Below are positions 43,657 to 54,378 of a stretch of DNA of 64,000 nt, piece after piece. Numbering within the stretch: position 1 is the first letter of the stretch; the number at the start of each line of letters is the position of its first letter. The stretch is taken from assembly GCF_900109145.1 (NCBI RefSeq), contig NZ_FNYY01000010.1, positions 124,001 through 188,000 of the forward strand, in the 5' to 3' direction. Source of the stretch: Marinovum algicola. GTDB lineage: Bacteria > Pseudomonadota > Alphaproteobacteria > Rhodobacterales > Rhodobacteraceae. The position numbers and the translations under genes were made by a program. The notes beneath the pieces were generated by a model. That model saw only the letters and a program-made list of their open reading frames with translations, did not search any database and was not told where the DNA came from.

Positions 43657-43857
43657 GGGCGATCCTGCGGCTTTGGGAGGTCACCGGAAGTGACCTCATT
43701 GCGGCGCCAGAGGCAATGGCCCGCGGCGGAAACTTTTGGCCGCGACGCCCGGGCTGCGACCAAATGATACGTAAAACAACGAAATGGTGACTTAATTTTT
43801 CACCTCTCAGCGGCTAGGACTGTCGCAATGATCTGACAGCCCATGGGGAGTGGTGCC

Positions 43858-45849
43858 ATGATCCCGGAACTCGGACAATTCGGCCTGGCCCTGGCGCTCG
43901 CGCTGGCGGTGGTGCAATCGGTGGTGCCGATGGCAGGTGCGGCCCGCGGCAACCTGGTGTGGATGCGCTCGGCGCAATCGACGGCGCTGGGGCAATTGGT
44001 GTTTCTCGCCCTGGCCTTCGGGGCGCTGATGTGGGCCTTCGTGGTCAGCGATTTCACCGTGCGCAACGTGGTCGAGAATTCCAACTCGCTGAAACCCATG
44101 TTGTTCAAGGTGGCCGCCACCTGGGGCAGCCACGAGGGTTCGCTGCTGCTCTGGACGCTGATCCTGGCGCTGTTCGGCGCGGGGGTGGCGGTCTTTGGCA
44201 CCAATATTCCCCATGCCCTGCGGGCGCGGACACTGTCGGTGCAGGCGTGGATTTCGGTCGGCTTCCTGACCTTCATGCTCTTCACCTCGAACCCTTTCGA
44301 GCGCATGTTGCCGCCGCCGGTCGACGGCAATGACCTCAATCCGCTGTTGCAGGACATCGGCCTCGCGATGCATCCGCCGCTGCTCTACGTCGGCTACGTG
44401 GGCTTTTCCATCGTCTTCAGCTTTGCCGTCGCCGCGCTGATCGAAGGCCGGGTCGATGCCGCCTGGGCGCGCTGGGTGCGGCCCTGGACGCTGGCGGCCT
44501 GGATGTCGCTTACCGCCGGCATCGCGCTCGGCTCCTGGTGGGCCTATTACGAGCTTGGCTGGGGTGGCTGGTGGTTCTGGGATCCGGTCGAGAACGTCTC
44601 GTTCATGCCCTGGCTGCTGGGCACCGCGCTGTTGCATTCCGCCATCGTCACCGAGAAGCGCGGCGCTTTCAAGTCCTGGACCATCCTTCTGGCAATCCTC
44701 ACCTTTTCGCTGTCGCTGCTGGGCACCTTCATCGTCCGCTCTGGGCTGCTGACAAGCGTGCACGCCTTTGCCGTCGATCCCGAACGCGGGATCTATATCC
44801 TCGGGCTGCTGGGCATCTCGATCGGCGGTTCTCTGACCCTCTATGCGGTGCGCGCACCGGCGATGGAGGGCGGCGGGCTGTTTGCGCCGGTCAGCCGCGA
44901 GGGCGGTCTTTTGATCAACAACCTGCTGCTGGCGGTGGCCACCGGCACGGTGCTCTTCGGAACGCTCTATCCGCTGTTTCTCGAGGCGATCACCGGCGAC
45001 AAGATCTCGGTTGGCCCGCCGTTCTACAATGCCTCCTTCGTGCCGATCATGCTGCCGCTGGTGTTCGTGATGGGGCTGGGGCCGTTCCTGACCTGGAAGC
45101 GGGCCGACCTGAAGGGCGTGCTGCAACGGCTCTGGCTGGCGCTGGCGCTGGCGGCGGTCGCGGCCTTGGTGCTCTGGTATCTGGTGACCGAGGGGCCGGT
45201 GCTGGCCGTGCTGGCCTTCGGCCTCGGCATCTGGCTCTTTGTGGCGACGGCGCAGGAATGGGCGTCGCGGATCAAGCTGTTCCGCGCGCCGTTTTCCGAA
45301 AGCCTGCGGCGCGCCCGCAATCTGCCACGCGCCAGCCATGGCATGACGCTGGCGCATCTCGGGTTGGCGGTCTGCATCTTCGGCTTTGTCGGCTCCTCGG
45401 CCTGGAAGGAAGACCTGATCGTCTTTGCCGAACCGGGTACAGAGGTTCAGGTGGCGGGCTTTGACCTGCGCCTCGAGGGCGTCGAAGAGGTGCCCGGGCC
45501 GAATTACACCGCCTTTCGCGCCACCCTGGTGGTAAGCCGCGATGGTGAATTCCTGCAAAACCTCTATCCCGAGCGGCGCAACTACCCGGTGGCGCGCAGC
45601 CAGACCACCGAGAGCGCCATTCGCCATTCGCTGGCCGGCGACCTCTATGCCTCGATCGCCGAGCCGGCCTCGCAGACCGCGGGCGAGGCCTGGACGCTTC
45701 GGGTGCTGTACGAGCCGCTGGTGAATTTCATCTGGCTCGGCTCTTTCATGCTGGTCCTCGGTGGCGCGCTTTCGCTCAGCGACCGGCGGCTGCGCGTCGG
45801 CGCGCCACGCCGGGCCAAGGCGCCCGAGATGGCGCAACCTGCGGAGTAA
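43858..45849 (+). CDS. ccmF: Cytochrome c-type biogenesis protein CcmF
   Basis: Core of the System I haem lyase in the inner membrane, joining haem b from CcmE to apocytochrome c with CcmH/I. The 663-residue polytopic protein has the tryptophan-rich WWD signature LGWGGWWFWDPVENVSFMPW near 233, TWGSHEGSLLLW near 86, conserved HPPLLYVGYVGFS, and many membrane helices. Start ATG 43858 is preceded by GGGGAG. It opens a ccmF-G-H-I operon with gaps of 5, -4 and 3 bases. Confidence 0.96.
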   Translation: MIPELGQFGLALALALAVVQSVVPMAGAARGNLVWMRSAQSTALGQLVFLALAFGALMWAFVVSDFTVRNVVENSNSLKPMLFKVAATWGSHEGSLLLWTLILALFGAGVAVFGTNIPHALRARTLSVQAWISVGFLTFMLFTSNPFERMLPPPVDGNDLNPLLQDIGLAMHPPLLYVGYVGFSIVFSFAVAALIEGRVDAAWARWVRPWTLAAWMSLTAGIALGSWWAYYELGWGGWWFWDPVENVSFMPWLLGTALLHSAIVTEKRGAFKSWTILLAILTFSLSLLGTFIVRSGLLTSVHAFAVDPERGIYILGLLGISIGGSLTLYAVRAPAMEGGGLFAPVSREGGLLINNLLLAVATGTVLFGTLYPLFLEAITGDKISVGPPFYNASFVPIMLPLVFVMGLGPFLTWKRADLKGVLQRLWLALALAAVAALVLWYLVTEGPVLAVLAFGLGIWLFVATAQEWASRIKLFRAPFSESLRRARNLPRASHGMTLAHLGLAVCIFGFVGSSAWKEDLIVFAEPGTEVQVAGFDLRLEGVEEVPGPNYTAFRATLVVSRDGEFLQNLYPERRNYPVARSQTTESAIRHSLAGDLYASIAEPASQTAGEAWTLRVLYEPLVNFIWLGSFMLVLGGALSLSDRRLRVGAPRRAKAPEMAQPAE

Positions 45850-45854
45850 ACGAC

Positions 45855-46409
45855 ATGCAACGTATCCTTGTCCTGCTGCCCATCGCGGTGGTTCTGGTGA
45901 TCGGTGGCTTCTTTGTCTGGGGGCTGAACCCCGAGCGCGACCCCAACGCCATTCCCTCGGTGCTGATCTCGAAACCGGTGCCGGTGTTTGACCTGGCGCC
46001 GATCGCCGGGGTCGATGTGCCGGGGCTGGCCAGCGGCGATCTGGCGGCGGGCGAACCGGTGCTGGTCAATGTCTTTGCCTCCTGGTGCGTGCCCTGCCGG
46101 GCCGAGCACAAGGTGCTGACACGCCTGGCTGCGCAGGAAGGCTTTCCGCTTTTTGGCATCAATTACAAGGACAAGCCCGAGGATGCGAAGGCATGGCTTG
46201 AAGAGTTGGGCAATCCCTATCTGCGCATCGGATCGGATGAGAGCGGCCGTTCCGGGCTGGAATGGGGCATCTCCGGCGTGCCCGAGAGCTTTCTGATCGA
46301 CGGCACCGGCACCGTGATCTGGCGCTATGTCGGACCGATTGTCACCGAGCAGGCGCAGGACGATCTGCGCCGCGCGCTGGCCGCGACGCGGGAAAGGGCG
46401 GCGTCGTGA
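45855..46409 (+). CDS. ccmG: Thiol:disulfide interchange protein CcmG (DsbE)
   Basis: Periplasmic thioredoxin that keeps apocytochrome cysteines reduced for haem attachment. The 184-residue protein has an N-terminal anchor (ILVLLPIAVVLVIGGFFVWG, residues 4-23), NVFASWCVPCRAEH with the CVPC active site near 78-81, YKDKPEDAKAWL (the family's acidic insert) and GVPESFLIDGTGTV with cis-Pro. Five bases after ccmF; its stop overlaps the ccmH GTG start. Confidence 0.95.
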   Translation: MQRILVLLPIAVVLVIGGFFVWGLNPERDPNAIPSVLISKPVPVFDLAPIAGVDVPGLASGDLAAGEPVLVNVFASWCVPCRAEHKVLTRLAAQEGFPLFGINYKDKPEDAKAWLEELGNPYLRIGSDESGRSGLEWGISGVPESFLIDGTGTVIWRYVGPIVTEQAQDDLRRALAATRERAAS

Positions 46410-46885
46410 GGGGGTTGCTTGCCGCGCTGCTGATCGCGCTGGCCGGAATGGCGGCGGCGGTCGAGCCGGATGAGATCCTCGACGACCCGGCACTCGAGGC
46501 GCGGGCGCGGGAAATCTCCAAGGATATCCGCTGCGTGGTGTGTCAGAACGAACCGATCGACAGTTCGAACGCCGGGGTGGCGCGCGACCTGCGGCTGCTG
46601 ATCCGCGAACGGCTGGTGGCCGGCGACAGCGATGACGAGGTGCGGCAGTACCTGGTCGACCGCTACGGCGATTACGTGCTGTTCAAACCGCCTTTCAAGC
46701 CGTCGACCTATGCGCTCTGGCTGGCGCCCTTCGTACTTCTGGGGCTGGGCAGCGTGGCGGCCGGGGTGGCGCTGCGGCGACGCAGCATGCGCGCCGGCGC
46801 CGAGGCGCTCAACGCCGAGGACGAGGCGCGCGTGGCCGAGTTGATGGCGCGCTATGACGGCGATCAGAGCAGGAAAGACGACTGA
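46406..46885 (+). CDS. ccmH: Cytochrome c-type biogenesis protein CcmH
   Basis: Haem lyase component with the redox pair that receives apocytochrome. The GTG start at 46406 overlaps the ccmG stop (GTGA), giving 159 residues: signal peptide (LLAALLIALAGMAAAV), IRCVVCQNEPIDSSNAGVARDLR with the CVVC pair near 43-46, YGDYVLFKPPFKPSTYALWLAPF with a C-terminal membrane helix, and a cytoplasmic tail. This matches CcmH of the short split type, with CcmI encoded separately next. Confidence 0.94.
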   Translation: MRGLLAALLIALAGMAAAVEPDEILDDPALEARAREISKDIRCVVCQNEPIDSSNAGVARDLRLLIRERLVAGDSDDEVRQYLVDRYGDYVLFKPPFKPSTYALWLAPFVLLGLGSVAAGVALRRRSMRAGAEALNAEDEARVAELMARYDGDQSRKDD

Positions 46886-46888
46886 GTG

Positions 46889-48034
46889 ATGACATTCTGG
46901 ATACCCGCCGCGGCGATGGCGCTTCTGGCCGTTCTGATGATTCTGTTGCCGCTCTGGCGCCGCGATGGCGCTGCGGTGGATCACCGCGAGGGCGCGCTGG
47001 CGATCTTTGTCGATCAGCTCAAGGAGATCGACGCCGAACGTGCCCGTGGGCTGATTTCACCGGCCGAGGCCGAGGCCGCGCAGCTCGAGATCAAGCGCCG
47101 GATGCTGGCGGTCGGTCGCCTGAAGGGGCGCGGACCGGCACGAACCGGCGGCGCGGCGATGCTGATGGCGCTGGCGGTGCTGGTGCCGCTGCTGGCCGGC
47201 GGGGTCTATGTGATGACCGGCGCGCCGGGGGCCGAGAGCCTGCCGTTTGCCGAACGCGCCGAGGAGCGCGCCGACACTCGCGAGATCGTGGAGCTGACCG
47301 AACGGCTGCGTGAGCGGCTGACGAGCGACGAGAATGGCGGGCCGACCGAGGGCTGGGAGCTTCTGGCCCAGACCTACATGAGGATGGGCCGATTCGACGC
47401 CGCCGCCGAGGCGCTGGGCCGGATCGTCGACCGCGAGGACGCCCATTCCGGCCATCTGACGCAATGGGCCGAGGCGCTGATCGCCGCCAATGACGGCATC
47501 ATCACCGCCCAGGCCGGAGCAGCGATCGACCGGGCGCTGGACATGGATGTGCTGAACCCGGCTGCGAGCTATTACAAGGCGCAATGGCTGGAGCAGGAAG
47601 GCCGCTCCGGCGAGGCGCGCGAGCTGCTGGTGCTGCGGCTGCGGCAGGCAGACGAGGCGCAGCCCTGGATGGAGGTCTTTCTGCGCCAGATCAACCGCCT
47701 CGGCAGCGAGACCGGCGCGGCACCCGTGGCGCTCGACGATTTCGTGGTGACCCGCGGCCCCAGCGCCGAGGACGTGGAGGCGGCCCAGGCCATGACCGCA
47801 GAAGAACGCGGCGATTTCATCCGCTCGATGGTCAACCGACTGGCCGAGCGGCTGGAGGACGAACCCGACGATCTCGACGGCTGGCTGCAACTCGGCCGCG
47901 CCTATGGCGTTCTGGGCGAGCAGGCGCGGGCCTTGCAGGCCTATCAGGCGGCCGAGGGGCTGCTGGAAGGGCTGGCTGCCAACGATCCGCGGCGGGAGGT
48001 CGTGGCCGCCGGACTGGCGGAACACGGCGGATAA
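46889..48034 (+). CDS. ccmI: Cytochrome c-type biogenesis protein CcmI
   Basis: Membrane-anchored TPR chaperone that presents apocytochrome c to the haem lyase. The 381-residue protein (ATG at 46889, or GTG at 46886) has an N-terminal helix, a cytoplasmic acidic/coiled loop (VDQLKEIDAERARGLISPAEAEAAQLEIKRRM region), a second membrane helix near 90-108, and TPR repeats such as GWELLAQTYMRMGRFDAAAEAL and GWLQLGRAYGVLGEQARALQAY. Its last codons (GLAEHGG) overlap the duplicated sequence at 48007-48138. Confidence 0.93.
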   Translation: MTFWIPAAAMALLAVLMILLPLWRRDGAAVDHREGALAIFVDQLKEIDAERARGLISPAEAEAAQLEIKRRMLAVGRLKGRGPARTGGAAMLMALAVLVPLLAGGVYVMTGAPGAESLPFAERAEERADTREIVELTERLRERLTSDENGGPTEGWELLAQTYMRMGRFDAAAEALGRIVDREDAHSGHLTQWAEALIAANDGIITAQAGAAIDRALDMDVLNPAASYYKAQWLEQEGRSGEARELLVLRLRQADEAQPWMEVFLRQINRLGSETGAAPVALDDFVVTRGPSAEDVEAAQAMTAEERGDFIRSMVNRLAERLEDEPDDLDGWLQLGRAYGVLGEQARALQAYQAAEGLLEGLAANDPRREVVAAGLAEHGG

Positions 48035-48138
48035 GCGGCGCGGCCGGGGTCGGAGCGAGGGGCCAGCCCCTCGCGCTCCCCGCGGTATTTTCGGCAAGAG
48101 GAAAGCCCGGGCGGGGGATCACCCGCCGGCCTGTTCGA
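48007..48138. repeat. Diverged direct repeat, copy 1 (period 240 bp)
   Basis: Aligns without gaps to 48247-48378: by eye 117 of 132 positions agree (about 89%). It spans the last codons of ccmI, the GC hairpin at 48055-48074, TATTTTCGGCAAGAGGAA and CCGCCGGCCTGTTCGA. The 48035-48358 intergenic stretch consists of these two copies plus a 108-bp unmatched segment. Confidence 0.85.
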
Positions 48139-48358
48139 CACTATTCCGTTTGCGAACGAGCTGAGGACGCCGGGCCCATGAGGTTTCGGCCGCGCAGGCG
48201 TGGTCTTGCAGGTCCATCGGGCGGTCGAGGAGGCTCTGGTGGGGGGCGCCGGGCCGGCAGAAACCGGCGGACAAGCGGCGCGGCCGGCGTCGGAGCGCGG
48301 GGCCAGCCCCGCGCGCTCCCCGTGGTATTTTCGGCAAGAGGAAGGCCCGGGCCGGGCG
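48035..48358. other. 324-base gene-free gap between ccmI and dsbD
   Basis: Holds two copies of a diverged repeat and a 108-bp segment (48139-48246) without similarity that I could find. On the minus strand the first copy ends a frame with VEQAGG (stop 48119), resembling the last residues of the DsbD-type protein (IEQAGG, stop 48359). Part of that gene's 3' end may thus have been duplicated. No convincing gene is present. Confidence 0.6.
48055..48074. repeat. Hairpin in repeat copy 1 (pair altered in copy 2)
   Basis: GCGAGGGGC-CA-GCCCCTCGC. In copy 2 the matching bases read GCGCGGGGC-CA-GCCCCGCGC (48295-48314): the A-T pair 48058/48071 is C-G there, a compensatory double change that keeps the stem. 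Confidence 0.7.
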
Positions 48359-48378
48359 TCAGCCGCCGGCCTGTTCGA
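48247..48378. repeat. Diverged direct repeat, copy 2
   Basis: Second copy of the repeat described at 48007-48138. It covers the 3' terminal codons of the dsbD-type gene on minus (stop 48359-48361). Confidence 0.85.
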
Positions 48379-50386
48379 TCGCCTCGAAGATCGCTGCTTC
48401 GCTGAGGATCTCGGGCAGCGGGATGCCGTTGGGCGCGGCCGGGCCGTAGACTGCGTTGAACGGGATGCCGAAGCGGCCGAAGCTTTCCAGATAGGCCGAG
48501 ATCGCCGGGTCAGGGCGGGTCCAGTCGGCCTGCATCGGCAGGATGTCTTCGGTCGCAAGTGCCTGCGACACCGGGCCCCGGTCGAGCACCAGCGCTTTGT
48601 TGGCCTTGCAGGTCAGGCACCAGTCGGCGGTGACATCGACAAAGACGATCTTGCCGGCGTCCACATGTTCGGCCAGGCGCGTGGCGTCGAAGCTGACCCA
48701 GTTGGTGGCGCTCTGGGCGGCCGCGGCCGGGGCGGGATCGCGCAGGGCGGGCAGGGCGACGGTGAGCGCCGCTAGCGCCGCCACGGTGAGCACGCGGCCG
48801 GGCAGGCGGCGGAAGGCAAGCGCCACGAGGATCAGCGCCATCAGCGTCGCGGTCAGCGCCGCGGCGGTGAGCCCGGCGACGCCGGTCAGGACAAAGAAAA
48901 GCCAGGCGGCGGTCAGTGCCAGAAGGCCCCCCATCACCAGCTTGAGCGCCAGCATCCAGCGGCCGGGCTTCGGCAGCAGCGCCACCACGCCCGGAAACGC
49001 CGCGACAGCGAGATAGGGCAGCGCGAGACCGAAGCCCAGCGCGGTGAAGATCACCGCAATCTCGCGGCCGCCGCCGGACATGGCATAGGCCACCGCGGTG
49101 CCGAGAAAGGGCGCCGAGCAGGGCGTGGCCAGGACCGCGGCAAAGGCGCCGGTGGTGAAATCGCCCAGCCGCCCGCTGCCGCCGGCGACCGAGAGCCGGG
49201 TTTGCAGCGCGGCGGGCAGGGACAGTTCGAACAGGCCGAAGAGGTTGGCGGCGAAGAGCACCAGGATCACGATCATCGTCGAGAGGAACACCGGGCTCTG
49301 GAATTGCAGGCCCCAGCCCACCGCGTGGCCCATGGTTTGCAGCCCCCAGGTGACCGCCGCCAGCGCCCAGAAGAAGGTCAGGACGCCCGCCGCCGAGAGC
49401 AGGAAGCCGGCCCGCACCCGGGCGCGGCCCTGGTCGGATTTGCGCACCGCCGCGGCGAGCTTGATCGACAGCACCGGCAGCACGCAGGGCATGACATTGA
49501 GGATCAGCCCGCCGAGGACCGCGATCAGCGCCATGGCCACCAGGCCCCGCCCGGGCGACGGCGCCGGCGGTGTGCTGCCGCCCAGCTCTGCCGAAATGGT
49601 GCCGGCATAGCTGCCGTCGGTCACCGTCAGGCGCAGCGCTTCGGGTGCGCCGTCCAGCGGATAGAGCAGCGGCACCTCGGCCCAGAGCCGGGTGCGGTCG
49701 CTGTCGAGGCGCAGATCGGGCTTGCCGAAGATCGCCTCGTCCAGTTCGGGAAAGACATCGGGCGTGCGAAAGCCGTTTGCATGGCGCACCGCGAAGGTCA
49801 GCGCCGTGTCGGAGAGATGTGCGGCTTCGATCTCGAGGCCCGAGGCCGCCTCTTCTTCCGGCACCCGCGCCAGGGCGTCGGCTAGGGTTTCGGCGGCGGC
49901 GGTGTCGATGCCGGTGCCCTGCGGCAGATCGAGCGTGAGGGTGAAATCCTCGGGGATGCAGATGTCCTTGCAGACCAGAAGCCGCACCTGGGTGGCCAGG
50001 CGGGCCGGCTGGCCCGGGGTCTCGAGCGCCACCTGGATCGGAAAGGTCACCGCATCGCCATAGCCGAAGTTCTCGATGTCGAAGGCGGTGAAGCGGGTCG
50101 GCGCCGGAAACAGCAGCTCGGTCGAAGCGAGATTGTCGGAAGCGCCCCAGTCGAGCTCCGGCGGCAGTCCGACTTCGCCGGGGCTGCGCCAATAGGTCTT
50201 CCAGCCGTCCGCCATTTCGAGCACCAGCCCGGCCGAGAGCGTGCCGGCCTCGGGCGCGACGCCATCTTCGGCGGTGATCAGCCGGGCGGTGAGGGCGGTC
50301 GAGCTGTAGGTGTCTGACGTGGCTGCCGCAGCCGCCGTGGGCAAGGCGAGGCTCAGCATTGTCCAGAGGACGGGGGCGAGGCGCAT
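48359..50386 (-). CDS. Thiol:disulfide reductase, DsbD/ScsB type
   Basis: Carries electrons from cytoplasmic thioredoxin across the membrane to periplasmic partners such as CcmG. The 675-residue protein has a signal peptide and a long N-terminal periplasmic domain with LLVCKDICIPEDFTL (CxxxC near 137). A DsbD membrane domain of about eight helices follows (LNVMPCVLPVLSIKL near 298, FLGTAVAYAMSG). It ends in a thioredoxin domain with VDVTADWCLTCKANKALV near 589. The N-terminus is the ScsB-like form rather than E. coli DsbDα. It converges on the ccm genes, which fits a role in cytochrome c maturation. Confidence 0.9.
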   Translation of the reverse strand: MRLAPVLWTMLSLALPTAAAAATSDTYSSTALTARLITAEDGVAPEAGTLSAGLVLEMADGWKTYWRSPGEVGLPPELDWGASDNLASTELLFPAPTRFTAFDIENFGYGDAVTFPIQVALETPGQPARLATQVRLLVCKDICIPEDFTLTLDLPQGTGIDTAAAETLADALARVPEEEAASGLEIEAAHLSDTALTFAVRHANGFRTPDVFPELDEAIFGKPDLRLDSDRTRLWAEVPLLYPLDGAPEALRLTVTDGSYAGTISAELGGSTPPAPSPGRGLVAMALIAVLGGLILNVMPCVLPVLSIKLAAAVRKSDQGRARVRAGFLLSAAGVLTFFWALAAVTWGLQTMGHAVGWGLQFQSPVFLSTMIVILVLFAANLFGLFELSLPAALQTRLSVAGGSGRLGDFTTGAFAAVLATPCSAPFLGTAVAYAMSGGGREIAVIFTALGFGLALPYLAVAAFPGVVALLPKPGRWMLALKLVMGGLLALTAAWLFFVLTGVAGLTAAALTATLMALILVALAFRRLPGRVLTVAALAALTVALPALRDPAPAAAAQSATNWVSFDATRLAEHVDAGKIVFVDVTADWCLTCKANKALVLDRGPVSQALATEDILPMQADWTRPDPAISAYLESFGRFGIPFNAVYGPAAPNGIPLPEILSEAAIFEAIEQAGG

Positions 50387-50486: not shown

Positions 50487-53400
50487 TCAGCCCCGCGGCA
50501 TGCGCAGGACGATGTTGCGGCCGCTCTTGACGTAGCTGAGCTGGCCATCGCCGATCGCCGAGACCCGGCCGCCATCGATCCGGTCGCCGACCTTGACCTT
50601 CTGGTAGCGGCCATTGGCAAGACGCACCAGCGCCCGGCGGCTGGCCGGTTTGCCATAGACACCGATCAGGTTGACCTTGTGCAGGTTGATGGCGTTCTTT
50701 TCGGTCGCAGCCGAGGTCACCGAGGCGCGCGAGGGAATGCTGGGCTGGACGGTGCGCGGCTGAACGGCGGCGGCCTGTTGCACCTCCTCCGCCTCGGTCG
50801 AGCGCTGCGCGCGGGTGACCAGGGCGGCGATGTTCGACGGCCGGCGCTGTGGCTGCGGCGAAGCGGCTACCGCCAGGGCGCTGGCCTCGATGTCCTCTTC
50901 GGCCGCGATCTTCTCGGCTTCCTGCTCGGGCCGGGGGCGCGGGCGCTTCTGGCGCAGCTCTTCCAGGCTGACGCCGCCCAGGTTGGCGCGCTCGTTCTGT
51001 TCGATCAGATCGCCGGGGCGGCCGCGTGGTTTGAGGCCGGAGAGCGTTTCATCCACCGCGGCCGCGACGTTGAGCCGCGGCGCTGATTCAGGTGCGTCCG
51101 CCTCGGGATCGGCCTCGGTTGTGGCGGTCTCTGCGTCGGGCTCTGCGCCGGTGGCGGCCTCGGGGCTGGCCGGCAGGGCGGTCTCGACCGGGGTGCCGGT
51201 GCCGGGGCGCTGCGGCGGCTTCAGCGGCGGCGGGCCCTGTACCAGAAGGAAGCCGGCCGGGTGGCGCACCCCTTCGGGGGTGGGCCGGATCAGCCCGTTG
51301 TCATCGAAGGTCAGCCCGGCATCGGCGGGATAGGGGTTCACCTGCGAGGGCGGCAGGACGTCGGTCTGCGCCTCGCGGCTGGTGGGGATGGCCACGGCGT
51401 CGCCCACCGCGACCGAGGGGTCGATCGAGGCGACATAGACATCGCCCAGAAGGCTCTGGGCGGGCTCATCCGGGGGCAGGGGCGCGCGCTGCCAGATGCC
51501 GGTCGCCGCATAGCGCGCTTCGGCCTGCTCCGGGCTCAGCGCTTCGGCTTCGAAAGGCACCGAGAGCCCGTCGACCTGATCCTCGACCAGATCGCGGCTC
51601 AGCGCCGGCAGGCCGGCATTCAGAGCTGCGACATTGATGGCGGCCGGATCTTCCGGGTTGATCCGATCGCCGGTTTCGGGCAGGGCAAGCGCGGTTTCGG
51701 GCACCGGCTCGACTCGGATCGCGGCCGGCGCATCCGGCGGCGTTGCGGCCTGGGCCGCCGCGCTGTCTTGCGGCAGGTTTTCGGGGGCGGCGGCCGCGGC
51801 GACCTGGGTGTCGGGGCTGCGGCGGAAAAAGCCGGCGAGCCCCTCGTCGAGGAAGATCGAGGCCATGGCGGCCACGGCGAGCATGACAAGCAGCAGCGCG
51901 GCGGTCAGGAACAGCCCGAGGAACCGCGGCTTGCCGCCCACCTTTTGCTGGCCGCGCGCGCCAAAGACGGTCATCCGCTCGCTCTCGTCCATCACAGCGC
52001 TGCCTGGGCCGGCGGCGGCGGGCCGCTTGCCCTTGCCAAAGGCCGGCTTGCGGATATCGGCCGCCGGGTCGACGGGTTTCAGCGGCTTGCGGCGGCTGGC
52101 AAAGCCGACGGATGGTCCGGAAGCCTCGGGCGCGGCCGTGCTTGCGGCGACGGCCAGGGCGGCGGTGGAGCTGGCGGGTTTGCCCTTGTCCGGGCCGGCT
52201 GGGTCGGGCTGGGCCTTGGGCCGCATCGAGAACGAGGCGCGGGCCTTGGCGGCAAGTTCCTCGGTTGCATCCTGCGGCTTGGGCGCCGTGCTGGGGCCGG
52301 TCGGGGCGGCGGACCGGGCGCTGATCTGTTTCGCCGGGCGCGGGGCCGGGGCATCGCGATGGGCGCGGATGCTGGCAAAACTGGGCGCGGCGGCGCTGTC
52401 GCTGGCAGCAGGCGCCTTGGGGGCGGCCGGTTTCGCCTTGGGCGGGGCGGATTTCGGCTTGGCGGTCGGCGCGGGGCGGGGCGCCGGGGCCGGCTTCGCT
52501 GCGGCGGGAGCTTCGGGCGGGACCGCCGGTGCCGGTTTCGGTGCGGCCGGTTTCGCCTTTGGCTTGGTGGCCTTGGGTTTCGGCTTGTCTGCTTCCGGTT
52601 TCGCCTTCGGCTTCTCGACGACAGGTTTCGCCTTTGGCGCGGCCGCCTCCGGTTTCGGCTCGGTGACCGGGGCAGGGGCTTTCGCGGAAGTTGTTGCCGG
52701 CGTTTTCGCCGAGTTCGGCTTGGGCGTGGCCACCGCATCCGCAGCGGGCGTCGGCGCGGCCATCGGCTCCGGTGCGGGCTCGACTTTGGCCGCGGGCTTG
52801 GCGCCCGGTTCGGCTTTTGCCGCAGGCGCGGGCTTGTCTTGCGGTGCGGAGCCTTTCGCGACGGCCGGTTCCGGTTCGGCGGCGGATTTGGCCTCCGGTT
52901 CGGCCAAGGGCTCCGGTTTCGGCGGCGTCGGGCGGGCAATCACGGTGATCGGCGCCGCGTCGCCTTCGACCGTCACGCCCGGGGCGAGCGAGGTCAGCGC
53001 GGTTTCGGTCGGGCCAAAGAACGGCTCGCGGCCAAAGCCGGCGCCGCTGGCCACCGCCGATACAAATCCCAGCGGGTGAAACCCGTGCGAGGTGGCAAAG
53101 CTCTCGGCCTCTTCCAGCGTTTCGCGGGCCACGGCGGCAATATGCAGCTTTCCGTCGCCGGCCTCGTAATCATAAACCAGATCGTCGATCGCATAGGGCG
53201 TGGCGCCATCCAGGGCCGATTCGACCGAGGCCACCGGCGAAGTCCCCACTGCGCGCGCCGGAATGTCGAGAAACCGCACCTGTTCGGTCGGCAGGACAAG
53301 CTTGACCTCCGCCGGATCGCCGCCCTCTGCCAAGGCGGAATTTCGCAGGTCTGCAAGGGCTTTGGGCAGGTTTTCCGTTTCGGGCGCCACATCGCCGAGC

Positions 53401-53489
53401 TTGTACCAACGGCCCTCGGTGTCGCCGTCTGCACGGCGCAGAAGGGCGATCCCGTCAAAGGACAGCAACAGTGCAAAATCTGGTTTCAT
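50487..53489 (-). CDS. Very large anchored protein: PilM/GspL-like N-terminus, Pro/Ala/Lys-rich linker, PilP/GspC-like C-terminus
   Basis: Function unknown. From ATG 53489 the protein has 1000 residues. Residues 1-150 (DFALLLSFDGIALLRR, FLDIPARAVGTSPVASVESAL, ATPYAIDDLVYDYE) follow the actin-like PilM/GspL pattern. About 190-500 is a low-complexity linker of KPKPKA/PAPK repeats. A membrane helix lies near 521-546 (FLGLFLTAALLLVMLAVAAM). Then comes a Pro/acidic-rich region, and residues about 930-1000 (LIGVYGKPASRRALVRLANG, then VKVGDRIDGGRVSAI) match PilP/GspC-type inner-membrane clamp domains. Automatic names mentioning IF-2 arise from low complexity. No pilus genes are near. Confidence 0.75.
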   Translation of the reverse strand: MKPDFALLLSFDGIALLRRADGDTEGRWYKLGDVAPETENLPKALADLRNSALAEGGDPAEVKLVLPTEQVRFLDIPARAVGTSPVASVESALDGATPYAIDDLVYDYEAGDGKLHIAAVARETLEEAESFATSHGFHPLGFVSAVASGAGFGREPFFGPTETALTSLAPGVTVEGDAAPITVIARPTPPKPEPLAEPEAKSAAEPEPAVAKGSAPQDKPAPAAKAEPGAKPAAKVEPAPEPMAAPTPAADAVATPKPNSAKTPATTSAKAPAPVTEPKPEAAAPKAKPVVEKPKAKPEADKPKPKATKPKAKPAAPKPAPAVPPEAPAAAKPAPAPRPAPTAKPKSAPPKAKPAAPKAPAASDSAAAPSFASIRAHRDAPAPRPAKQISARSAAPTGPSTAPKPQDATEELAAKARASFSMRPKAQPDPAGPDKGKPASSTAALAVAASTAAPEASGPSVGFASRRKPLKPVDPAADIRKPAFGKGKRPAAAGPGSAVMDESERMTVFGARGQQKVGGKPRFLGLFLTAALLLVMLAVAAMASIFLDEGLAGFFRRSPDTQVAAAAAPENLPQDSAAAQAATPPDAPAAIRVEPVPETALALPETGDRINPEDPAAINVAALNAGLPALSRDLVEDQVDGLSVPFEAEALSPEQAEARYAATGIWQRAPLPPDEPAQSLLGDVYVASIDPSVAVGDAVAIPTSREAQTDVLPPSQVNPYPADAGLTFDDNGLIRPTPEGVRHPAGFLLVQGPPPLKPPQRPGTGTPVETALPASPEAATGAEPDAETATTEADPEADAPESAPRLNVAAAVDETLSGLKPRGRPGDLIEQNERANLGGVSLEELRQKRPRPRPEQEAEKIAAEEDIEASALAVAASPQPQRRPSNIAALVTRAQRSTEAEEVQQAAAVQPRTVQPSIPSRASVTSAATEKNAINLHKVNLIGVYGKPASRRALVRLANGRYQKVKVGDRIDGGRVSAIGDGQLSYVKSGRNIVLRMPRG

Positions 53490-53664
53490 TCGTTCGGCTT
53501 TCGCACTCCTTCGCGGGTCGCACAAGTCACGACCGCCTCACCTCGAATTTAGGGCAGCTTCCCGCCGAGAAAACCCTTTGCGCCGCTCCGCCGCCGCTTC
53601 TAGATTGGCGGGCACAGGGCGGTCCGGCATCCGCCGTGATGAGTATAACACAAAGGTTCCGCCA

Positions 53665-54378
53665 ATGTTGAGACGTTTGATTGTAAACACTTTTGTTGCC
53701 CTGATCGCAACGATTCCCGTGGCCGCGCAAGAAACGCCTGTGGCGCGGCAGATCGTTGTCACCGGCGAAGGCCAGGTGCAGGCCGCGCCCGATATGGCGA
53801 CGTTGTCGATCGGCGTCGGCCACGAAGCGCCGACCGCGGCCGAGGCGATGGCAGAGGTAAGCGGCACGGTGCAGCAGATCTTCACCCGGCTGACCGAGCT
53901 GGGCGTTGCGCCGCGCGACGTGCAGACCGCCTCGCTGCGGATCGATCCGATCTGGCGCGACCGCAACCGCTCGACACCCGAAGAACCGCCGGAGATCGTG
54001 GGCTTTCGGGCGCAGAATGACATCACCGTCCGTCTGCGCGACATGGCGCGGCTCGGCGAGGTGATCGGCCTGCTGGTCGAAGACGGGGCCAATCGGCTCT
54101 CGGGCGTCAGCTTCGGCGCCCAGAGCCCCGATTTGCACATGACCGAGGCGCGCCGGCTGGCGGTTGTCGACGCGCAGGCCCGCGCGGCGCTTTATGCCAA
54201 GACCGCCGGGGTCGAGTTGGGCCCGGTGATCGAGATCGTCGAGCCGGGCAACTCGGGCGGTCCCGGCCCGATGTTTGCCCGCGCCGAGTCGATGTCGGTG
54301 GTCGGGGATGTGCCGGTGGCCGGCGGCGAACTGACCTTTTCCGCGCAGGTGCGGATGACCTTTGCGATCACCCGCTGA
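53665..54378 (+). CDS. SIMPL domain (DUF541) periplasmic protein
   Basis: A 237-residue secreted protein: signal peptide (LIVNTFVALIATIPVAAQ), then the SIMPL domain starting RQIVVTGEGQVQAAPDMATLSIGV near 27 and ending with VRMTFAI. Relatives have been linked to outer-membrane and oxidative-stress phenotypes, but the biochemical role is unclear. Start ATG at 53665, divergent from the large protein across 175 bases; convergent with the FkbM gene after 6 bases. Confidence 0.88.
   Translation: MLRRLIVNTFVALIATIPVAAQETPVARQIVVTGEGQVQAAPDMATLSIGVGHEAPTAAEAMAEVSGTVQQIFTRLTELGVAPRDVQTASLRIDPIWRDRNRSTPEEPPEIVGFRAQNDITVRLRDMARLGEVIGLLVEDGANRLSGVSFGAQSPDLHMTEARRLAVVDAQARAALYAKTAGVELGPVIEIVEPGNSGGPGPMFARAESMSVVGDVPVAGGELTFSAQVRMTFAITR

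Follow-up and report, generated by a model that had tools for sequence, protein, structure and literature searches.

What is the role of a protein that joins, in one chain, two parts which pilus and type II secretion systems keep on separate proteins? The question arises from a gene in a 64,000-nucleotide stretch of the Marinovum algicola genome (contig NZ_FNYY01000010.1, positions 124,001 to 188,000; hereafter the window). A sequence-only reading of the window had proposed that positions 50487-53489 encode a 1000-residue protein with an N-terminus like the cytoplasmic, actin-like platform protein PilM/GspL and a C-terminus like the periplasmic clamp domain of PilP/GspC. Our analysis points to a fused, exapted type IV filament inner-membrane platform that most likely acts as a stand-alone envelope-spanning tether, a reading to which we give a probability of about 0.5.

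One gene encodes both ends of a proposed inner-membrane platform

The proposed coordinates and length proved exact. The strand, which had been left open, is minus: there an ATG-to-stop open reading frame (ORF) of 1000 codons exactly fills 50487-53489, and the plus-strand reading was rejected, as its frame contains a stop. An upstream TTG would yield 1012 residues; the ATG is the likely start because relatives begin at MKPxFAL. From N to C terminus, the protein consists of a conserved N-end that opens with MKPDFALLLSFDG, a Pro/Ala/Lys-rich stretch, a membrane helix, a Pro-rich acidic stretch and a conserved C-end that closes with VNLIGVYGKPASRRALVRLANGRYQKVKVGDRIDGGRVSAIGDGQLSYVKSGRNIVLRMPRG. 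The expected membrane helix and long Pro-rich spacers are thus present, as one strong helix between two Pro-rich linkers. The features are as follows.

50487..53489, minus strand: gene for the 1000-residue PilM/GspL-like to GspC/PilP-like transmembrane fusion (ORF and translation; stop codon included)
52986..53489, minus strand: N-terminal domain, residues 1-168, predicted cytoplasmic, with a GspL/PilM-like actin-related fold and no nucleotide-binding half (AlphaFold, Foldseek, structural realignment)
51924..52985, minus strand: putative cytoplasmic Pro/Ala/Lys-rich linker, about residues 169-522 (21% Pro and net charge +27 over the 347 residues from domain to helix)
51867..51923, minus strand: transmembrane helix, residues 523-541 (Kyte-Doolittle mean 2.65)
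50733..51866, minus strand: putative periplasmic Pro-rich acidic linker, about residues 542-919 (13% Pro, net charge -30)
50688..50732, minus strand: conserved pre-domain motif SVxxxATxxNAI, residues 920-934 (V8 and T13 invariant in the 25-row C-end alignment)
50490..50687, minus strand: C-terminal domain, residues 935-1000, predicted GspC homology-region (HR)/PilP beta-sandwich (AlphaFold, structural realignment, profile match)

Relatives were drawn from 128 sources (the window plus 27, 80 and 20 loci), among which 113 ORFs carry both ends. Because some genomes are represented twice among the loci (for instance L031/L083, L032/L095 and L033/L066), the numbers of loci should not be taken as numbers of species. 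The number of Lys and Arg in the 15 residues before the helix exceeds that after it in 109 of the 113 relatives, equals it in three and falls below it in one. By this charge bias (the positive-inside rule), the fusion is predicted to have its N-end in the cytosol and its C-end in the periplasm. Linker length varies widely among relatives, from 0 to 543 residues on the N-side and from 245 to 637 on the C-side; the periplasmic linker of the window's protein has 377.

Predicted structures identify both ends

To compare the two ends we used alignments of two sizes. The smaller ones comprise 26 of 27 N-end rows (L033, with a broken start, was excluded) and 25 C-end rows (L053 and L057 excluded). 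The larger ones take N-ends from 71 of 76 and C-ends from 61 of 80 genome-collection loci, each plus the window.

Fold prediction recovered the GspL/PilM fold for residues 1-170. The AlphaFold model of the N-end (72 sequences) has a predicted local distance difference test (pLDDT) score of 94.7 and a predicted template modelling score of 0.89. Foldseek matched it to GspL (5tkw, 1.5e-8), PilM (5eq6, 7.3e-7) and FtsA (3wqu_B, E 9.7e-4), and every one of the 15 PDB matches with E <= 0.001 belongs to GspL, FtsA or PilM (a chain of a pilus-machine model included). On structural realignment, GspL 4pht_Y came first (Z 11.2, root-mean-square deviation (rmsd) 3.7, 149 residues aligned), with EpsL 1yf5 at Z 11.0 and PilM 5eou_B at Z 10.2, then FtsA 3wt0_C at Z 8.7. 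Several of the PilM alignments cover no more than the first half of that protein (chain residues about 10-176). The position that we take to be the glycine of the phosphate loop, a DxG-type motif, is Ser in 17 of 26 rows of the smaller alignment and in 72 of 72 rows of the larger, which makes nucleotide binding by this domain unlikely.

Matches by sequence were sparse at this end. Pfam gave weak T2SSL matches in 3 and PilM_2 in 1 of the 26 N-ends, and PilM_2 in 2 and T2SSL in none of the 72. The window's protein has no match to Pfam T2SSL (PF05134), which the genome's true GspLs do match, and none up to E 5 to PF12693 or PF05137 (GspL_C/PilN-like); both of the genome's own GspLs match PF12693. 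A sequence-only PDB search with the N-end returned no meaningful match. The predicted structure nevertheless assigns the N-end the GspL/PilM cytoplasmic fold.

The likeness of the C-terminus to the periplasmic clamp domain was likewise confirmed by prediction, which places a GspC-HR/PilP fold in the last 66 residues. In the AlphaFold model (62 sequences) the first 50 residues are poor and the last 66 score about 94 pLDDT, and the top-ranked structural matches are PilP and GspC. Realignment gave Z 10.0 for the GspC HR (3oss_C; rmsd 1.5, 60 residues aligned), Z 8.7 for PilP (2lc4) and Z 7.5 for a chain of the Dot/Icm type IV secretion system (7muc_Af); unrelated rows start at Z 3.8. The C-end profile matched a GspC-type alignment (97.5%, E 7e-12) and, among PDB sequences, GspC 7oio (E 0.0079). 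NCBIfam pilP_fam matches all 62 rows of the larger alignment (best E 1.1e-7) and Pfam PilP all 25 of the smaller (best 2.4e-4), while the window's own C-terminal 120 residues reach 30.0 bits against pilP_fam (cut-off 34.65) and its C-end 16.2 bits against Pfam PilP PF04351 (cut-off 25.6). Sequence support for both ends is real but below curated cut-offs, and it is the predicted structure that settles fold identity. A weak match to NCBIfam TIGR02500 (SctD, type III secretion inner ring) also covers the C-domain in 43 of 62 C-ends (best 2.4e-5).

The fusion is a core feature of Rhodobacteraceae

Searched with the single sequence, 32 of 61 genomes had the fusion, all of them Rhodobacteraceae, and 24 genomes from other families gave no match. 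With profiles, the N-end was found in 187, the C-end in 191 and either end in 195 of 198 Rhodobacteraceae genomes. The fused architecture is a core feature of the family, and it lies far beyond chance because both ends are conserved family-wide whereas the linkers vary. Scanning a genome collection with an 8-row C-end alignment returned 511 relatives; the best 80, which were retained, are titled Rhodobacteraceae or Roseobacter-group, except one "Alphaproteobacteria" and one unverified "Flavobacteriia" metagenome-assembled genome. The same kind of scan with the single fusion protein yielded 81 pattern stretches and no relatives. A plasmid search gave one record, an unannotated 1.58-Mb Pseudorhodobacter replicon.

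The fusion persists in genomes without detected filament machinery

The window's genome has three secretins and a strong CpaB match and, elsewhere, a Tad locus and two type II secretion system (T2SS) loci with separate GspL; one T2SS locus was confirmed to hold GspC, beside gspD, and the other GspM. With separate T2SS and Tad components present, the fusion comes on top of them in this genome. We ran the phylogenetic profile against pilus genes that the sequence-only reading had suggested, scoring Tad by CpaB above the cut-off and calling a genome filament-less when it had no CpaB, no Pfam secretin and no T2SSF-type platform protein. The T2SSF search also covered three Tad-bearing genomes, and each of them was matched.

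CpaB is above the cut-off in 169 of the 198 family genomes. Among the 29 without it, 22 have no Pfam secretin, and 20 of these 22 have no T2SSF-type platform protein either. The N-end is retained in 24 and the C-end in 26 of the 29, and both ends in 15 of the 20 filament-less genomes. Among the 15 filament-less genomes that are >=90% complete and <=5% contaminated, 12 retain both ends; two of the other three (G117 and G190, loci L196 and L197) carry a weaker N-end on the same ORF as the C-end, and in the third (G033) the N-end ORF runs to the contig end. The C-domains of the filament-less set (L186-L197) keep the core motifs, less strictly. The fusion thus persists in genomes without a detectable secretin or T2SSF-type platform protein, and Tad was rejected as its strict partner on the retention of the N-end, with faster change in the CpaB-less genomes standing as counter-evidence. 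In four Tad-less genomes (G017, G032, G086 and G135) the only secretins are weak matches (E 1e-10 to 1e-17) in ORFs of 517-597 residues. STN domains, sought as alternative partners of the C-domain, were found in none of 18 genomes.

Filament-less genomes are scattered on the trees, not clustered. The label "no Tad, no secretin" requires 9 changes on the family tree (at least 4 forced by supported branches) and 8 on the metZ tree (at least 3 forced). These trees were built from 35 and 29 chosen rows. Branch lengths in them are biased, because the Tad-bearing rows had been picked up through their similarity to the window.

Gene neighbourhood, split copies and solo copies

The absence of pilus genes nearby, remarked on from the sequence, holds both for the gene's neighbourhood in the window and for the genes retained around it in related loci. 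Those retained are metZ, SIMPL, a glycosyltransferase gene, a KefB-like gene and a CarD-like gene; metZ lies near the fusion gene in 108 and a divergent SIMPL gene in 73 of 123 loci. No pilus, secretion, Tad, division or motor-protein gene is among the retained neighbours in these 123 loci. In the window, the SIMPL gene adjoins the fusion gene:

53200..54378, plus strand: divergent SIMPL (DUF541) gene, its real start probably inside this interval (Pfam SIMPL 8.5e-52; neighbour by position)

Cytochrome-c maturation genes (ccmF-, thioredoxin- and ccmH/I-like, named by eye) and a gene for a DsbD-like protein also adjoin the fusion gene, at 43843-50386. We dropped this neighbourhood as a clue, as just 3 of 28 loci in the first set and 2 of 80 in the second retain it.

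In L053 (G017), L199 (G086) and L198 (G032), the two ends of the fusion lie on ORFs of their own, or the C-end alone was detected. These cases may be natural un-fusions, pseudogenes or assembly errors. The C-end ORF of L053 has a hydrophobic stretch near its start.

Outside Rhodobacteraceae, the C-end profile matched 16 genomes of a class sample in ORFs of 162-372 residues, the size of GspC; 269 genomes, only part of them listed by name, gave no match. Of 9 such outside-family loci examined, 7 have a gspD relative nearby. In one from another family (L236:7649-10243, minus strand, G241), also near a gspD relative, the ORF adjacent to the GspC-like gene has a Pfam PilN match, and the N-end profile aligns with its middle part (hhalign 87%, E 4e-6). 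This arrangement may be unfused and ancestor-like. We infer that gspL/pilM-type and gspC-type genes of an alphaproteobacterial secretion locus were fused, or their domains co-recruited, before the family radiated.

Roughly 9 kb beyond the start of the window, its genome also carries a solo HR-like copy of the C-terminal domain, about 90 residues long, at C41:114681-114902 (L230:7679-7972, minus strand). It has no visible signal peptide or membrane helix, and a cytosolic GspC/PilP-type fold would be odd. In G094, G174, G105, G207 and G143 (L181-L185) the solo copy lies among purF, a short-chain dehydrogenase gene, surE, pcm and a LysM/peptidase-like gene (names by eye). At least two C-domain matches occur in 54 of the 198 family genomes (counted by eye), and a segment related to the SVxxxATxxNAI motif is visible in some solo paralogs.

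A proposed stand-alone tether and its rivals

Parts of the filament literature describe what the relatives of the two ends do. PilP and the GspC HR attach to the N0 domain of secretins through edge-on pairing of strands (passages of PMC3441751), and PilM and GspL dock cytosolic and membrane partners (passages of PMC3441751 and PMC4471445). PilMNOP and GspCLM form a connection from the cytosol to the secretin in the outer membrane; it is under debate whether they pass on force or serve only as a connection (passages of PMC4471445). A job of its own across the envelope is probable for the fusion, because it is retained in species where pilus and secretion machines were not found; with both ends in one flexible chain, the simplest such job is a tether from the cytosolic side to the periplasm or outer membrane. 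We picture a single-pass protein whose cytosolic end would be the docking part of GspL/PilM, without the nucleotide-binding half, and whose periplasmic end would be the GspC-HR/PilP clamp domain. The N-domain would hold a cytosolic or membrane partner through its PilM/GspL-type surface. The 377-residue linker would be long enough for the C-domain to cross the periplasm and take hold of a partner in the periplasm or outer membrane, pairing with it along a beta-strand edge in the way that PilP and GspC pair with secretins. Such a tether would require neither secretin nor pilus motor, and as neither secretin nor T2SSF was found in the filament-less genomes, its partner there should be something else. 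A stricter form, in which a core envelope protein of the family, unrelated to pili and secretion, couples across the envelope independently of secretin and motor and the solo clamp copy is apparently cytosolic, seems to us somewhat short of an even chance.

Several observations weigh against the tether. N-ends have diverged further where CpaB is lacking (median E exponent 47.5 vs 62, p 8e-4, uncorrected for kinship), and such genomes also lack the N-end somewhat more often (Fisher p 0.012, uncorrected). Branches are long for L192 and L194-L197, even though L195 and L196 have an ordinary metZ. Most forks of the trees have weak support, and three genomes (G017, G086 and G032) have a split or degenerate gene. 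The assignment of the N-end rests on its fold and on scattered weak matches, because hhalign against the genome's own two GspLs gave no support (0.2% and 1.1%) and Pfam on the 72 N-ends gives little. With the loss of Tad, the constraint may have weakened in some lineages, and such a relaxation on filament loss fits a filament-linked role.

Such a role would be that of an accessory of the Tad pilus (or T2SS), giving the secretin CpaC a PilMNOP-like alignment of inner and outer membrane and lingering under weaker constraint, or with a second job, after Tad loss. Tad is nearly as widespread in the family as the fusion, the HR fold of its relatives binds secretin N0 domains (passages of PMC3441751), and the platform position is vacant in Tad systems because PilMNOP homologues are missing or very rare near Tad genes (according to part of PMC6668835). 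The divergence, the long branches and the N-end absence in CpaB-less genomes keep this role in consideration as an unlikely yet serious candidate; against it stand the 24 and 26 of 29 CpaB-less genomes that retain the N-end and the C-end, the 22 of 29 without a secretin, the lack of a Tad gene among the retained neighbours and the core motif still kept, less strictly, in the C-domains of the Tad-less L186-L197. We regard as improbable a scaffold for cell division or polarity, its N-domain acting in the cytosol and its C-domain sensing or anchoring at the wall or outer membrane: FtsA is the next-best structural relative of the N-domain and the gene is core and syntenic, but GspL and PilM match that domain better, the C-domain is specifically GspC/PilP-like and no division gene is among the retained neighbours.

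The SIMPL protein BP26 of Brucella forms a ring, and the C-domain could dock on a SIMPL ring instead of a secretin ring. The pairing in 73 of 123 loci would suit this, but the gene was not found in the other 50, and general synteny explains the pairing, because metZ, a plain metabolic gene, is retained more often. SIMPL as an obligate partner is not supported, and even a looser partnership is a slim prospect. Slimmer still is the chance of a TonB/TolA-like energy coupler: the single helix, long Pro-rich periplasmic linker and small C-terminal beta domain resemble TonB in outline, but the C-domain fold is that of GspC/PilP, there is an extra cytosolic domain and no motor-protein gene is among the retained neighbours.

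A single-chain version that persists where no motor platform or secretin was found offers a natural minimal system for studying what dock and clamp do alone. In our searches no curated family reached its cut-off for this core protein of a widespread and largely marine family, and the fusion reading now suggests a likely class of function for it. The fusion is not described in the open-access titles, abstract starts and selected passages that we searched, a scope outside which most subscription papers lie; the passages found in the R. sphaeroides transposon-sequencing text (PMC5513736) name no such gene.

Comparison with known systems

With GspL (EpsL/PulL) of the T2SS, the fusion shares a cytosolic actin-related domain, one membrane helix and a periplasmic part. 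Its N-domain is shorter (about 170 residues vs 224-238 in PDB chains), a long linker precedes the helix, and it bears a GspC HR domain, without a GspL_C periplasmic domain detected by Pfam, outside a T2SS locus. PilM, which works with PilN in the type IVa pilus, aligns with the N-domain (5eou_B), but the latter has half the length (170 residues vs 333-357), a replaced phosphate-loop glycine and a membrane anchor in the same chain. The fusion lacks the full two-lobed, ATP-binding actin fold of PilM, and the DxG-type motif is lost. It was found neither in a tad locus nor in strict co-occurrence with Tad.

On the periplasmic side, GspC likewise carries its HR domain behind one membrane helix. The cytosolic end of GspC is short, and a PDZ domain is often present, as in the GspC of this genome, whereas the fusion has a 170-residue docking domain, a periplasmic linker of roughly 380 residues and no gspD beside it. 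The lipoprotein PilP shares the C-domain fold (2lc4), with pilP_fam near its cut-off, and has a Pro-rich stretch before the domain, as the fusion does (for PilP, a passage of PMC3441751). The fusion differs from PilP in starting with a cytosolic domain and no lipoprotein start, in its single-pass helix and in having no pilM/N/O/Q neighbours. The Dot/Icm type IVB chain 7muc_Af, which we take to be DotF, has an HR-like fold like that of the C-domain; it is part of the type IVB core complex, where a PilM-like domain is not shown. With this chain, the HR-like fold is used outside secretin systems.

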